From a virus, in IMG/VR virus record IMGVR_UViG_3300017725_000072, positions 1 to 23,455 of that record: DNA of 23,455 bases; one strand, 5' to 3'. The position numbers and the translations under genes are program-made. Positions 10,067 to 22,634 of the stretch are shown here, piece after piece. Each line of letters opens with the position of its first letter. Positions within the stretch are counted from its first letter, which is position 1. A model generated the notes under the pieces. That model was not told where the DNA came from, did not search any database, and was given only the letters and a program-made list of their open reading frames with translations.

Positions 10067-10687
10067 ATGAGTTTTATGAATAAAGTATCAATAGTCTTTA
10101 AAACACTTATGTTTGTTTTTGTATTATCAGCTTGTACGGCTGTTGTTTATGCATACCATTTACAAGGTGAAAAACAAATAGAAACATTAGAAGAATTTGA
10201 AGTACAAAAACCTGATTTTGAACATAGTAGCAATCAGACGTTTTTAGATAGTGTAAATATGTGTGTAGATTATATTTACCATACAACAACTGATATTATG
10301 CCTGTCAATAGAGAACTATTATTAGCTCAGGCAGCCTTAGAAAGTGGTTGGGGTACAAGTAGATTTGCCTTAGAGGGTAAGAATTTATTTGGTATTCGTA
10401 CATACGATTTAAGAGAACCACATATGTTACCATGGAAAGATAAACCTAAAAAATGGGGTGTAAAAGTATTCTTCCATGAATGTGATAGTGTCCAGAACTA
10501 TATGGATATACTAAATAATGGATCAGCATTTGAAGAATATAGAAAATTAAAACATGAAGGCGAGAATGATCCTTTTATTTTAATTACAACATTAGGTGCC
10601 TATGCTTCAGACGCAAATTACTTTGTAAAAGTTAAGAGTATTATTAAGAAAATAAGATCAGAGTATAAATTAAACTACATTAAATAG
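10067..10687 (+). CDS. membrane- or lipid-anchored glucosaminidase (GH73/Bax-like) peptidoglycan hydrolase
   Basis: A 206-residue protein with an N-terminal hydrophobic segment (about residues 9-30) containing a possible lipobox LSAC (20-23). The catalytic domain follows: LLLAQAALESGWGTSRF (84-100) with the probable catalytic Glu92, then NLFGI (106-110), the two signature blocks of GH73/FlgJ/Bax-type N-acetylglucosaminidases. These cleave the glycan backbone of peptidoglycan. Because it is exported or anchored and a second, signal-less endolysin lies at 13349, it may act from the periplasm in wall remodelling or lysis timing (inference). SD GAGGAG precedes the start. Confidence 0.8.
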   Translation: MSFMNKVSIVFKTLMFVFVLSACTAVVYAYHLQGEKQIETLEEFEVQKPDFEHSSNQTFLDSVNMCVDYIYHTTTDIMPVNRELLLAQAALESGWGTSRFALEGKNLFGIRTYDLREPHMLPWKDKPKKWGVKVFFHECDSVQNYMDILNNGSAFEEYRKLKHEGENDPFILITTLGAYASDANYFVKVKSIIKKIRSEYKLNYIK

Positions 10688-15254: not shown

Positions 15255-15617
15255 ATGACTAAAATAATAGCCCTCATTTTCTCTGTATTTTTATTTGCTT
15301 GTGCTTTTTCATTTGAGTCAAGAGCTGACCATAAGTCAACAACTGAATACGATGGTTTAGAATGGTCACAGTTACCAGTTATTTGTGGTACTACAGACGC
15401 CGTAAATGAATATCTAGTACATAACGAATTTATATTAGAGAGTTTATCTGTGGGAAAAGAGAACGCTAAAGAATCAGGTCAAAGTGTTTATATGGTAAGT
15501 TACTTTATAAACGAAAAGAGAACTGAAACTATGGCAGTAATTACAGCTCCGTCAGGTACGGAAAGTTGTATGCTGTACAGATCATTTCAATTGGCTTTTC
15601 CTGGTCTTATGCTATAG
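15255..15617 (+). CDS. exported small protein of unknown function
   Basis: A 120-residue protein with a Sec signal (residues 1-24, cleavage probably after ESRA). The mature part contains two Cys residues (LPVICGTTD and ESCMLY) placed to form a disulfide, and a VSYFINEKRTETMAVI strand pair. SD AAAGGGG precedes the start. The family is not one I can name. It probably acts in the periplasm. The tmRNA gene starts soon after its stop, and a possible tmRNA promoter overlaps its last codons. Confidence 0.65.
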   Translation: MTKIIALIFSVFLFACAFSFESRADHKSTTEYDGLEWSQLPVICGTTDAVNEYLVHNEFILESLSVGKENAKESGQSVYMVSYFINEKRTETMAVITAPSGTESCMLYRSFQLAFPGLML

Positions 15618-15618
15618 G
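15591..15618 (+). promoter_or_regulatory. possible promoter for the tmRNA gene
   Basis: TTGGCT (15591-15596), 16 nt, TATAGG (15613-15618), overlapping the end of the preceding gene. Transcription would start near 15625, shortly before the acceptor piece. The match is imperfect, so this is tentative. Confidence 0.4.
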
Positions 15619-15639
15619 AATTCTTGTTGAAGGTAATGT

Positions 15640-15845
15640 GAGTAAACATTTGGGACTAGGGGGCAGTACCCTACACCTCCACCAAAATTATATGGGGGTG
15701 AACTAGGTTCGACCAATGACTAGAAAACGTGCTGGAGAGGATAGTCGGAAGACTTAAAATTTATATAAACGCAAACAATAACTTTGCTATGGCTGCCTAA
15801 TTGGTAGTCGGCGTTTGGTGGTACGTGGCAACAGAAACCACCATT
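15640..15845 (+). ncRNA. ssrA: tmRNA gene, circularly permuted (two-piece)
   Basis: The order is reversed: the 3' acceptor part comes first, then the 5' coding part. CACCTCC (15674-15680) plus encoded ACCA pairs fully with GGGGGTG (15694-15700), a 7-bp acceptor stem with the G3-U70 wobble that marks alanine. A T-arm-like TAGGG/CCCTA (15657-15673) precedes it. Only 9 nt (15685-15693) separate the two ends. The coding piece has the conserved TTCGAC (15708-15713) and a tag frame GCA...TAA at 15771-15800 encoding ANNNFAMAA. AAACGC/GCGTTT (15767-15772 with 15811-15816) and TGGTGGT/ACCACCA (15816-15822 with 15837-15843) form further helices. The T-loop GGCAGTA is non-canonical. Outer boundaries are approximate. 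Role: rescue of stalled ribosomes. Confidence 0.9.
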
Positions 15846-15872
15846 TACTTTTGTACTTAATTATGATATATT
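15844..15872 (+). promoter_or_regulatory. sigma70-like promoter for thyX, leaderless start
   Basis: TTTACT (15844-15849), 17 nt, TATATT (15867-15872). The ATG of thyX at 15879 is 7 nt downstream with no SD in between, repeating the spacing seen at 2076 and 22074. Confidence 0.55.
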
Positions 15873-15878
15873 AATAAT

Positions 15879-16493
15879 ATGAATATTGAACTTATAGATA
15901 AAATGGGTAGTGATTTATCCATAGTCAATGCAGCTAGAGTATCCTTTTCTAAAATCAAATCACAATTTGATGAGAAAGATGAAAGACTTATAAAATATCT
16001 AGCAACTCACAATCATTGGTCCCCATTTGCTCATGCAAGTTTACAATTCAGAATAAAGGCACCAATATTTGTCGCAAGACAATTAGTAAAACATCAAGTC
16101 GGTTTAGTTTGGAACGAAGTCAGTAGAAGATATGTTGACTACGAACCTGAATTTTACATACCATTTTTATGGCGAAACAAAGCTGTAGATAAGAAACAAG
16201 GTAGTGGTAAAGACGAAATAGAATATGATGTTACAGATTTGATTACACAAGCAAAACAATTGTATAGTGATATGATAGAAAAAGGTATTGCACCAGAAAT
16301 GGCAAGAATGATTTTACCTCAAAGTATGATGACAGAATGGATCTGGTCAGGTACTTTATATGCATTTGCTCGAGTTTGTCAATTAAGAAACCAAGACGAT
16401 TCACAACAAGAAACAAGAATGATAACTGAACAGATGGCTAAACATTGTAGAGACCATTTTCCTGTCAGTTGGAGGTATTTAAATGAACAGTAA
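15879..16493 (+). CDS. thyX: flavin-dependent thymidylate synthase ThyX
   Basis: A 204-residue protein making dTMP from dUMP with FAD and methylene-tetrahydrofolate. The ThyX signature lies at about 67-85: RQLVKHQ followed by NEVSRRY. The usual R-H-R opening reads K-H-Q here, a variation I believe occurs in phage ThyX. N-AARVSF (17-23) and HWSPFAHASLQF (46-57) are the expected FAD/substrate strands, and RNQDDSQQETR near residue 170 fits the C-terminal binding helix. It supplies dTMP for an AT-rich genome. No SD is seen, so it is probably leaderless. Confidence 0.93.
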   Translation: MNIELIDKMGSDLSIVNAARVSFSKIKSQFDEKDERLIKYLATHNHWSPFAHASLQFRIKAPIFVARQLVKHQVGLVWNEVSRRYVDYEPEFYIPFLWRNKAVDKKQGSGKDEIEYDVTDLITQAKQLYSDMIEKGIAPEMARMILPQSMMTEWIWSGTLYAFARVCQLRNQDDSQQETRMITEQMAKHCRDHFPVSWRYLNEQ

Positions 16494-19392: not shown

Positions 19393-20218
19393 AGTATTTT
19401 GTATAGGTAATGGTGAAAGTAGAAAAGGTTTTGATTTAGAAACATTAAGACCTCACGGCAAGATTTATGGTTGTAATGCTCTGTATAGAGATTTTACACC
19501 AGATGTATTAACTGCTGTAGACCAAGGTATATGCCACGAAATATACCATTCAGGTTATAAGGGTAAAGTTTACTTTAGAAACTGGACAAAGTTGCCAGCA
19601 CAAAACTATGAAATGGTTTTATATGCAGGCCTTACACAAGAGGAAATTAATTTAACAAAATCACAATGGGACGGTTTATATGAAAATGACAGAGGTAATG
19701 CTACTGAGTTTGTTATGCACGGCTCTAATATGGCTGGAATTGTAAACATAATCAGAAAAGATAAAACAAAATACAAAGAACGAATTAATAAAAGTTATGC
19801 TTATATTTCTTGGATTAGAGAAGATGATAATTCAAGTTGTATAACCGATGTAAACAAGAACGAGAGAGATAGAGGTTGGGCTTGTGGTGCAATGTCAGGA
19901 TATATTGCAGTAATGAATGAGAAACCAACCGATGTATATTTGATAGGACAAGACCTGTATAGTCATACCACAAAAGTAAACAATCTATACAAGGGTACAA
20001 AGAATTATGTTACTTCCGATCACCACCCTACACCAGCTTCGAACTGGATAGACCAATGGAGTAACCTTTTTAGAGAGTTTCCTAATATCAATTTCTACAA
20101 GGTAAATCGATATAATGACGCCAGAGATGATGTAAATAGAGAGATACCAGAGTGGAAAGATATCAACAATATTAAGTATATCGATTATTCCACGCTTGAC
20201 TTTTTGAGCGGAAAGTGA
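19385..20218 (+). CDS. Rossmann-like protein of glycan/DUF115-type appearance
   Basis: A 277-residue protein. It begins VFCIGNGESRKGFDLETL (a nucleotide-binding-like G-N-G-E-S loop at about 8-12), then YGCNALYRDFTPDVLTAVD, a HGSNMAGIVN block and a GQDLYSHTTKVNNLY segment. The opening resembles DUF115 or sialyltransferase-type proteins that use CMP- or UDP-sugars, which fits the glycosyltransferase cluster at 1-1954. No catalytic residue is certain. Its last 30 bases carry the next promoter (20196). It overlaps the preceding gene by 8 nt. Confidence 0.55.
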   Translation: MSKVFCIGNGESRKGFDLETLRPHGKIYGCNALYRDFTPDVLTAVDQGICHEIYHSGYKGKVYFRNWTKLPAQNYEMVLYAGLTQEEINLTKSQWDGLYENDRGNATEFVMHGSNMAGIVNIIRKDKTKYKERINKSYAYISWIREDDNSSCITDVNKNERDRGWACGAMSGYIAVMNEKPTDVYLIGQDLYSHTTKVNNLYKGTKNYVTSDHHPTPASNWIDQWSNLFREFPNINFYKVNRYNDARDDVNREIPEWKDINNIKYIDYSTLDFLSGK

Positions 20219-20224
20219 TATATT
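20196..20224 (+). promoter_or_regulatory. sigma70-like promoter within the 3' end of the preceding gene
   Basis: TTGACT (20196-20201), 17 nt, TATATT (20219-20224) with TGA just before it (extended -10). Transcription should begin near 20231 and run into the structured leader of the peroxiredoxin gene. Parts are identical to the promoters at 5541 and 14527. Confidence 0.8.
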
Positions 20225-20230
20225 AGAGAT

Positions 20231-20466
20231 AATGCAAAAGAAAACTAATTACTTTCTTTTTATAGTGCAAGGAAGAGGGCTTTACCAGAGGCTCGAACTT
20301 GACAGTTTAGGGGTTGTTCCCAGGTTGCTAGACTTATCATCTAGTGGTCACACTACCGACAGGTAGAAACTGGTTGCTGGCGGATAGGAATGGAATCCGG
20401 TCGTTGGCTTGTGGGTAATTCCATAGTCCCACCTATTATGCATTTAACTATTAACTACAAGGAATT
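20231..20466 (+). ncRNA. long GC-rich structured leader RNA of the peroxiredoxin gene (riboswitch-like)
   Basis: About 235 nt from the predicted transcription start to the SD. 20271-20440 is 49 percent GC by hand count, well above the AT-rich surroundings. Pairings seen: CAGTTT/AAACTG (20303-20308 with 20367-20372) closing CTAGA/TCTAG (20328-20332 with 20340-20344) and CTACC/GGTAG (20353-20357 with 20362-20366); ATGGAAT/ATTCCAT (20390-20396 with 20418-20424); GTGGG/CCCAC (20411-20415 with 20428-20432), which crosses it. AATTCC (20417-20422) can instead pair with GGAATT (20461-20466) over the SD. No class I know matches. An ORF 20232-20366 (44 residues) also exists but has atypical codons. It may be a separate small RNA. 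Confidence 0.6.
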
Positions 20467-20468
20467 TT

Positions 20469-20999
20469 ATGAATGTTAAACCTCATACGTTTAAATTTAG
20501 AACAGGCGATACAGACGAAAAAGGCGGATGTACTTTTATCGGTGGCTCGTGGGTTGACAAAACAACAGATGAATTATTTAAGGGAAAGAAAATAGTATTG
20601 TTCAGTTTACCTGGTGCATTTACACCAACGTGTTCAGGTGAAGAACTACCAAGTTACGATAGAATGTATAACGATTTTATTAACAAAGGTTTTGATGATG
20701 TTTATTGTGTATCAGTAAATGACGCTTTTGTTATGAATGCTTGGGCAAGAGATTTAGAAATTAAAAATGTTAAAATGATACCAGACGGCTGTGGTACATT
20801 TACAAGTAACATGGGAATGCTGGTTGCAAAACCTAAACAAGGTTTTGGCATGAGGTCTTGGAGATATGCAGCTATCGTAAATGATGGCAATGTAGAAAAG
20901 ATTTTTGAAGAACCAGGTTTTAATAATTTTTCAGATGATGACGATCCGTATGTAGAGTCAACACCTGAGAATGTAATGAATTATTTAAATGCAAGCTAA
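20469..20999 (+). CDS. peroxiredoxin (Prx5-like)
   Basis: A 176-residue thioredoxin-fold peroxidase. The active-site loop LPGAFTPTCSGEELPSY (47-63) gives the peroxidatic Cys55 with the P-x-x-x-T-x-x-C pattern. NDAFVMNAWA (84-93) and the arginine-bearing MRSWRYAAIV fit the Prx5 subfamily. It would reduce hydrogen peroxide or organic peroxides with thiol donors; the window also has a glutaredoxin. Prx5-type genes in marine phages would be host-derived. AAGGA is the SD, and it may be masked by the structured leader upstream. Confidence 0.9.
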   Translation: MNVKPHTFKFRTGDTDEKGGCTFIGGSWVDKTTDELFKGKKIVLFSLPGAFTPTCSGEELPSYDRMYNDFINKGFDDVYCVSVNDAFVMNAWARDLEIKNVKMIPDGCGTFTSNMGMLVAKPKQGFGMRSWRYAAIVNDGNVEKIFEEPGFNNFSDDDDPYVESTPENVMNYLNAS

Positions 21000-21005
21000 A
21001 ACTTG

Positions 21006-21013
21006 TATAAATA
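21006..21013 (+). promoter_or_regulatory. candidate T4-type late promoter before gp32
   Basis: TATAAATA, the T4 late -10 consensus, lies 68 nt upstream of the gp32 start in noncoding DNA. Because such 8-mers arise by chance in AT-rich DNA (others sit inside genes at 8323 and 15213), support is moderate only. T4 gene 32 has several promoters, which fits. Confidence 0.45.
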
Positions 21014-21081: not shown

Positions 21082-21993
21082 ATGGATTTCGAAGCATTAA
21101 AAAGTTCCTCTAGTAACTTTGACAAACTAACAAAAGCACTAGAACAAAACCTCAATCCTGAGGACCAATCTAACAAAAACAAATACCAAGACGAGAGAAT
21201 CTGGAAACCTGAGATGGATAAAACAGGTAACGGCTATGCTGTACTTCGTTTTTTACCAGCTGTTGAAGGTGAAGATATGCCTTGGCAGAGAGTATGGTCT
21301 CATGCCTTCCAAGACAAAGGTGGTTGGTATATTGAAAACTCTTTAACAACACTTGGTCAAAAAGATCCTGTTAGTGAAGAGAACACTAGATTATGGAATA
21401 CAGGTGTTGATAGTGATAAAGATATTGCTAGAAAGAGAAAAAGAAAACTCTCTTACTTTAGTAATGTTCTTATCGTAAGTGATCCAAAAAATCCACACAA
21501 TGAGGGTAAAGTATTCTTGTTCAAGTTTGGTAAAAAAATCTTTGATAAGATTACTGAAGCAATGCAACCAGCATTTGAAGATGAATCACCAATCAACCCA
21601 TTTGATTTCTGGAAAGGTGCAAACTTTAAACTGAAATTAAGAAAAGTTGATGGTTATTGGAATTATGACAAGTCTGAATTTGAGTCTGTTTCACAAATAA
21701 AAGAAAGCGATGATGAAATCAAAGCTATCTGGTCGAAACAGTATGCTCTAAAACCATTCTTAGATCCTAGCAATTTTAAGACCTATGATGAACTCAAAGA
21801 GAAACTGAATAGGGTAATTAGCGGATCGAAGAGTGCTGGAACTGTTGAGAATGTAGACCTCCCGCCTCAGATCAATAGCGCACCAGCTAAAAGTCCTGAA
21901 GTTGCTCAACCAAAGGTAGATACTAAAATTGAACTAGATGATGAAGAAGATGATACTTTGTCTTACTTTAGTAAACTAGCTAACGAAGAGTAA
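21082..21993 (+). CDS. 32: gp32-like single-stranded DNA-binding protein
   Basis: A 303-residue protein with the gp32 layout: a short N-terminal cooperativity segment (SSSNFDKLTKAL), an OB-fold core (WKPEMDKTGNGYAVLRFLP, WSHAFQDKGGWYIENSL, EGKVFLFKFGKKIFDKI, NPFDFWKGANFKLKLRK), a Ser/Ala/Pro linker, and a very acidic tail (DDEEDDTLSYFSKLANEE) that would recruit gp59 and other replication proteins. There is no cysteine at all, so the zinc-binding site of T4 gp32 is missing. A strong SD (AAGGAG) and a strong terminator flank the gene. Confidence 0.92.
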   Translation: MDFEALKSSSSNFDKLTKALEQNLNPEDQSNKNKYQDERIWKPEMDKTGNGYAVLRFLPAVEGEDMPWQRVWSHAFQDKGGWYIENSLTTLGQKDPVSEENTRLWNTGVDSDKDIARKRKRKLSYFSNVLIVSDPKNPHNEGKVFLFKFGKKIFDKITEAMQPAFEDESPINPFDFWKGANFKLKLRKVDGYWNYDKSEFESVSQIKESDDEIKAIWSKQYALKPFLDPSNFKTYDELKEKLNRVISGSKSAGTVENVDLPPQINSAPAKSPEVAQPKVDTKIELDDEEDDTLSYFSKLANEE

Positions 21994-22073: not shown

Positions 22074-22634
22074 ATGGCAAACGTATTAGACCCTTTAGTT
22101 GATAGGCAAGGTGGAGTAACAAAATCTGTTAGTTGGTACAGAAATGCAGTAAATTCCATAGCTAATAAGGCAACTGCTAATAAATTAATGAGTCAGAATA
22201 AGTTAATTGGTAGACCTAGTGCAGGTAGATTAAATCTATTTTTCTATGATCCTAAGTATAAGAAAACATTACCATATTACGATACGTTTCCGTTAGTGTT
22301 ACCTTTAGAACCAATCAAAGGTGGTTTTATGGGTATGAATTTTCACTACTTATCGCCTGTAATGAGATTTAGATTATTACAGACTATGGATAAGTTTAAA
22401 AATAGAAATGAGTTAACATCAGCAACAAGGTTTGATGTAAACTACAATGATGTAAGAAGAATACCAATGGTAAAACCAACAATTAAAAAATATTTGTTTC
22501 AACACCTTATGTCAAACTTTTTAAGAATAGACGCACAAGAGGCTGCTATTGCAGTTTACTTGCCTGTACAACAGTTTAAGAAAAGATCAGCTAGTTTCGT
22601 TTACGGAAGAAGTAGATCAATAATAGGGAGCTAA
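22074..22634 (+). CDS. T4-type virion-associated protein, precise gp unassigned
   Basis: A 186-residue basic protein. The central part RLNLFFYDPKYKKTLPYYDT, followed by FPLVLPLEPIKGGFMGMNFH and YLSPVMRFRLLQTM, is a strongly conserved-looking block that I associate with T4-like marine phages. I cannot settle which T4 gene it corresponds to. It follows a perfect late promoter and precedes a tube/baseplate gene by 2 nt, which supports a structural or assembly role. No SD is present. The C-terminus is Arg/Ser-rich. Confidence 0.6.
   Translation: MANVLDPLVDRQGGVTKSVSWYRNAVNSIANKATANKLMSQNKLIGRPSAGRLNLFFYDPKYKKTLPYYDTFPLVLPLEPIKGGFMGMNFHYLSPVMRFRLLQTMDKFKNRNELTSATRFDVNYNDVRRIPMVKPTIKKYLFQHLMSNFLRIDAQEAAIAVYLPVQQFKKRSASFVYGRSRSIIGS

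Follow-up and report, generated by a model that had tools for sequence, protein, structure and literature searches.

The leader in front of a phage peroxiredoxin gene in the stretch of DNA analysed here (the window: an IMG/VR virus record, 23,455 bases long) is, as judged by sequence comparison, a divergent member of the manA RNA family (RF01745), not an RNA of an unknown class. In our view manA RNA is probably no riboswitch leader; more likely it is a phage RNA gene that stands on its own and is followed, in the window, by peroxiredoxin. Slightly less firmly, we would argue that the family has been misfiled: manA would be a stand-alone RNA gene widespread among marine T4-like phages, housed in tRNA arrays and exchangeable slots, and its product would act in trans, with translation or tRNAs as possible targets. 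manA has been a riboswitch candidate since 2010, without a known ligand; if it is indeed a stand-alone gene, a ligand search guided by the genes behind it is bound to fail, and trans-acting assays would become applicable to an abundant family of marine phage RNAs.

The window virus is T4-like (Kyanoviridae-type) and lies near isolated Pelagibacter phages, its closest isolate relatives being Mosig EXVC030M and HTVC008M; these relatives, together with a permuted tmRNA, gp32, and a DNA end protector gene (22074-22634), point to a T4-like virus whose host is probably SAR11. On the plus strand, a sigma-70-like promoter with 10/12 matches (20196..20224; TTGACT at 20196-20201, a 17 nt spacer, and TATATT at 20219-20224, with TG before the -10 hexamer) is followed by the manA-class structured RNA (20231..20444, about 214 nt including its closing stem P0), the Shine–Dalgarno (SD) sequence AAGGA (20459..20463), the peroxiredoxin gene (20469..20999; 176 aa; phrog_2281, 7.7e-68), a late-promoter-like TATAAATA (21006..21013), which we take to be of the T4 type, and the gene for the ssDNA-binding protein gp32 (21082..21993; phrog_224), the usual downstream neighbour of manA RNA where peroxiredoxin is absent. 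The promoter match is not by itself significant within this window. Since no terminator or second promoter was found in the window between the RNA and peroxiredoxin, manA RNA is here predicted to be part of the peroxiredoxin mRNA leader, with peroxiredoxin as a cotranscribed downstream neighbour. The permuted tmRNA gene of the window (15581-15891) scores 114 bits against alpha_tmRNA and 103 bits against tmRNA_permuted, and has the predicted tag ANNNFAMAA. HTVC008M carries peroxiredoxin, and no manA match was found in it. A published motif search of SAR11 phages reported no riboswitches (PMC7029224); the range of manA RNA now includes viruses akin to SAR11 phages.

An Rfam scan at the gathering threshold is empty at the leader because its score of 42.3 bits lies below the 55.2 bits set for RF01745, a database threshold and not a structural feature; an RF01745 search of the window's own record also gave no match. 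With weak matches (to E 10) included, cmscan aligns 20237-20442 with the full RF01745 model (positions 1-192; E 1e-9), all model helices being present. The window copy is, moreover, homologous to leaders that do score above the cut-off (L006, 65.0 bits; L001, which is Mosig, 64.0; L022, 58.9; L016, 57.7; L005, 57.0), with an identity of 72-79% to those of L005, L006, L007, and L022 and of 71% to that of Mosig EXVC030M. It is this combination of a full-length match with homologues above the cut-off that leads us to class the element as a divergent manA RNA. A sequence-only reading of the same DNA had recognised no known riboswitch class here; the cmscan search that it proposed does bring out a described family, once sub-threshold matches are listed and homologues are scanned.

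Comparison across homologues clearly supports the presence of a structured RNA in front of peroxiredoxin, as that reading had supposed. The folding energy of the single leader is unremarkable (z = -0.05) and so does not by itself set the leader apart from chance. The leader does contain a GC-rich stretch, with up to 44% GC over 170 nt, its surroundings having about 30-33%. Using an alignment of 35 non-redundant class-A homologues, drawn from the class-A matches listed, RNAalifold predicted 52 pairs, 37 of them with both sides changed. When a fixed 65-pair structure was imposed on the same homologues, 91.3% of cells were paired (shuffled mean, 76.7%; slid structures, 38-50%), both-side changes occurred in 38/65 pairs, and double-change cells numbered 348 versus 111 expected; none of 500 shuffles reached the observed value on any measure. 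The covariation check on homologous leaders thus comes out in favour of the predicted fold.

All helices of this fold lie on the plus strand. The closing stem P0, which is outside the Rfam model and whose first base is the predicted +1 position, pairs AATGCA (20231..20236) with TGCATT (20439-20444), with 97.1% of cells paired and covariation in 4/5 pairs. The P1 hairpin (20237-20242 with 20254-20259) is placed by the RF01745 match and the covariation analysis, and the long-range closing helix P2 (20261-20265 with 20433-20437, including one U-U mismatch) by the RF01745 match; because 4/5 of the P2 pairs are invariant, no covariation test is possible for it. P3 (20268-20271 with 20298-20301) is likewise invariant, and the P4 hairpin that it encloses (20277-20283 with 20288-20294) covaries. 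The multiloop helix P5 (20303-20308 with 20367-20372; 99.5% paired, 6/6 pairs covarying) encloses P6 (20310-20312 with 20319-20321), P7 (20323-20327 with 20345-20349), and P8 (20353-20357 with 20362-20366), and is followed by the P9 stem-loop (20376-20381 with 20403-20408, 6/6 outer pairs covarying; inner helix, 20387-20389 with 20396-20398). The GTGGG/CCCAC helix (20411-20415 with 20428-20432), previously read as a crossing element that might lock one of two states, is instead the strongly covarying P10 hairpin (100% paired, 3/5 pairs covarying). Its 3' strand directly adjoins that of P2, a layout that looked tRNA-like (T-arm/acceptor-like) to us and on which we base no claim. The pairing of ATGGAAT with ATTCCAT corresponds to the loop–loop pseudoknot of the family (20390-20395 with 20419-20424), which is weakly supported (69% of cells paired, a nearly invariant GG/CC core, and weak covariation) and is marked 'pseudoknot?' in Weinberg 2010 (PMC2864571).

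Copies embedded in tRNA arrays carry much of the argument for a stand-alone gene. In subclass C, a tRNA lies 0-2 nt away on the 5' side in 10/10 loci and a downstream tRNA 3-6 nt away in 7/10; measured against rough expectations from the tRNA density on the same contigs, a tRNA ends within 30 nt upstream of P2 in 10/10 loci (expected 0.26) and starts within 20 nt of the 3' end in 7/10 (expected 0.18), and for class D, among the matches listed, tRNA adjacency is found in 8/110 (expected 0.06 on the same rough basis). Isolate phages show the same arrangement: in S-CREM1, tRNA-Leu ends at 10213, manA spans 10215-10429, and tRNA-Asn starts at 10429; in S-SSM7, manA ends at 151563 and tRNA-Gly starts at 151564; and in Synechococcus phage ACG-2014f manA lies between tRNA-Arg and tRNA-Asn. 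The two flanking tRNAs of the last phage, tRNA-Arg(TCT) and tRNA-Asn(GTT), are missing from the annotation of its record (L360, NC_026927.1, ~132,720-133,110). By Rfam-defined boundaries, L394, L402, and L525 have the order tRNA-manA-tRNA with gaps of 0-2 nt or overlapping ends, and L441 the order manA-tRNA; L441 (171 bits) and L525 (184.9 bits) are canonical, high-scoring copies. Four tRNAs (L050:1961-2031, L067:2900-2970, L441:393-463, and L525:2519-2589; Rfam 43-53 bits), of which those in L050 and L067 escaped ARAGORN, are to judge by sequence apparently tRNA-Gly(UCC)-like and have an unusual T loop (GGCAGTA, for example). In pelagiphages they stand before peroxiredoxin, in cyanophage-like contigs directly after manA.

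Copies outside tRNA arrays come with signals of their own, called throughout as sequence matches in metagenome fragments that were found by pattern scans and are partly related to one another, hence not independent, the pooled class A set being of mixed lineages. A sigma-70-like promoter with at least 10/12 matches lies just upstream in 94% of the 78 class-A homologues listed (2.8% in shuffled sequence) and in 89% of the class D matches listed (1.2% shuffled), so that in about 90% of the class A and D copies listed a dedicated promoter runs up to the 5' end of the RNA. The tRNA-embedded subclass C copies have an own promoter in 0/8 cases, which fits an origin from the tRNA transcript. At the other end, intrinsic terminators occur within 80 nt after the class-A RNA in 35/81 loci listed, compared with 0 in control stretches, with 23 different terminator arms 8-17 nt after P0, and many gp32-linked copies have the late-promoter motif 6-7 nt after the RNA; both counts are approximate because the 3'-end finder misplaces some class-A ends. 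Copies with a terminator or late promoter after the RNA are therefore separable from the next gene. Immediately behind manA, L416 (from 3487), L443, L450, and numerous loci of class D also carry GACCTAAGATGCAACTC...GAGTSGGGCAGATGGTCTTTTTT, a conserved element that resembles a terminator hairpin, is conserved in its interior as well, and has no Rfam match at gathering score.

The slot before peroxiredoxin is itself exchangeable. Across 80 relatives of the gene it holds class-A manA RNA, a class B RNA, a tRNA (as in L050 and L067), a permuted tmRNA (L051, L052), or a promoter and SD only; in the closely related phages L011, L013, and L017 the promoter and peroxiredoxin are kept and the RNA is missing. 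Seen from the RNA, the gene that follows class A and B copies is gp32 in at least 59 loci, peroxiredoxin in at least 33, and one of many others elsewhere; the downstream genes fall into at least 22 clusters for types A and B and at least 32 for C and D, with gp32 (24/119) and talC (15/119) as recurring C/D neighbours among the matches listed. In isolate phages manA follows pstS or gp23, lies between regA and purL, precedes talC, or adjoins tRNA genes. Peroxiredoxin is an incidental neighbour of an RNA that also precedes gp32, rubrerythrin, talC, and dozens more genes. With their tRNA arrays, terminators, and late promoters, many members look like transcription units independent of any protein gene, the window copy being joined to peroxiredoxin. 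The class B leader RNA (GGAGGGTTAYGRCCRARTGG) occupies the same slots in L008:1206-1440, L009, L012, L025, L031, L046, and several dozen more loci; it matches manA at only 26-29 bits, in two loci, which is why Rfam misses the group, and it is probably a separate subfamily. Two further observations concern neighbouring annotation: one phage peroxiredoxin gene is preceded, at a distance of about 300 nt, by a glutamine riboswitch (RF01739, 53 bits; L068:632-680), and hypothetical proteins annotated over manA RNAs in P-SSM4 (PSSM4_169.1, 164884-165057), S-SSM5 (SSSM5_127, 116417-116623), and S-SSM7 (SSSM7_180, 151441-151572) are probably spurious.

Weinberg 2010 presented manA as a riboswitch candidate and scored it as certainly cis-regulatory (PMC2864571), the Rfam entry is classed Cis-reg, and cyanophage papers up to 2023 still call it 'cis-regulatory' (PMC9964418, PMC10665884). 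A cis-acting riboswitch or leader regulator that senses a metabolite or the infection state and controls the downstream gene, here peroxiredoxin, would fit the predicted cotranscription across a terminator-free gap in the window, the short distance to the gene in many loci, and the recurrence of gp32, talC, and peroxiredoxin as neighbours, and the class A order of promoter, RNA, and terminator would equally suit a termination switch. We nevertheless hold this account to be unlikely, because a riboswitch needs a gene in cis and the tRNA-wedged copies have none; dozens of unrelated genes stand downstream of other copies, and late promoters sit between RNA and gene. No manA ligand was found in the open-access literature. 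Nor is there RNA-specific pairing with terminator arms: across the 23 different arms, antiterminator pairing was 12.96 for the RNA's own arm and 12.90 for swapped RNAs, and an antiterminator switch was rejected on this ground. The swap tests on terminators and SD regions revealed no conserved expression platform joining the fold to either.

A more specific form of cis control, put forward in the sequence-only reading, has a ligand, redox, or temperature signal act by SD masking, with AATTCC of the P10 loop alternating between the P9 loop and the SD. The motifs lie where they were described (ATGGAAT, 20390-20396; ATTCCAT, 20418-20424; GGAATT, 20461-20466; and GTGGG/CCCAC), and both pairings exist in the window sequence, but the AATTCC/GGAATT pairing is absent from relatives with the same RNA and gene. 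When RNAs and SD regions were swapped among 7 class-A leaders, each ahead of a peroxiredoxin or rubrerythrin gene, the best helix of an RNA with its own SD region was no better than with swapped ones; in addition, L012 has this SD region (AACTACAAGGAATTTTATG) behind another type of RNA, and the link of the RNA with peroxiredoxin is not a fixed one. We therefore regard an SD-masking switch as highly improbable. Somewhat less remote, yet still doubtful, is a dual use in which a stand-alone RNA is excised by RNase P, RNase E, or RNase III and the excision also matures the peroxiredoxin mRNA: promoter, RNA, and gene form one unit in the window, and other lineages hold a tRNA or permuted tmRNA, both processed RNAs, before peroxiredoxin, whereas the window copy has no adjoining tRNA. 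The stand-alone gene, which the sequence-only reading had mentioned as a further possibility, is the better-supported option.

For the stand-alone gene we infer how transcription, processing, and action in trans might proceed. A host-type promoter would start transcription at the first base of P0, and the resulting RNA of roughly 214 nt would fold into P0-P10 and the loop–loop pseudoknot, with its two ends paired together. In other phages its ends would arise by tRNA processing (in tRNA arrays), at an intrinsic terminator, or through a switch to a late promoter; in the window phage, the transcript would lack an end signal and run on into peroxiredoxin. Here the RNA may also have a local effect in cis on peroxiredoxin, since no terminator or second promoter parts the two. 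The tRNA-array setting leads us to guess that the action in trans is tied to tRNAs or translation.

Compared with described manA RNA (RF01745; PMC2864571), the window copy shares the full-length alignment, the helices, the putative pseudoknot between the P10 and P9 loops, and T4-like marine phages as hosts; it differs in its sub-threshold score, its extra closing stem P0, the presence of AGTGCAAGGAAGAGG where manA RNA has GUGACUGAAUAAaCUU, and a position upstream of peroxiredoxin rather than of a mannose, nucleotide, or photosynthesis gene. The permuted tmRNA of T4-like pelagiphages (RF04321, RF01849) is likewise a phage-encoded structured RNA and in some lineages stands before peroxiredoxin in the place that manA takes here, whereas manA has no tag reading frame, no CCA end, and another fold. 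GOLLD and ROOL are phage RNAs of unknown function that often occur near tRNA islands (PMC12286853); manA is about 190-215 nt long, has an unrelated secondary structure, and gives no sign of oligomer cages, but shares with them the character, in its case probable, of a stand-alone structured phage RNA in a tRNA-island setting, a likeness of setting and not of membership.
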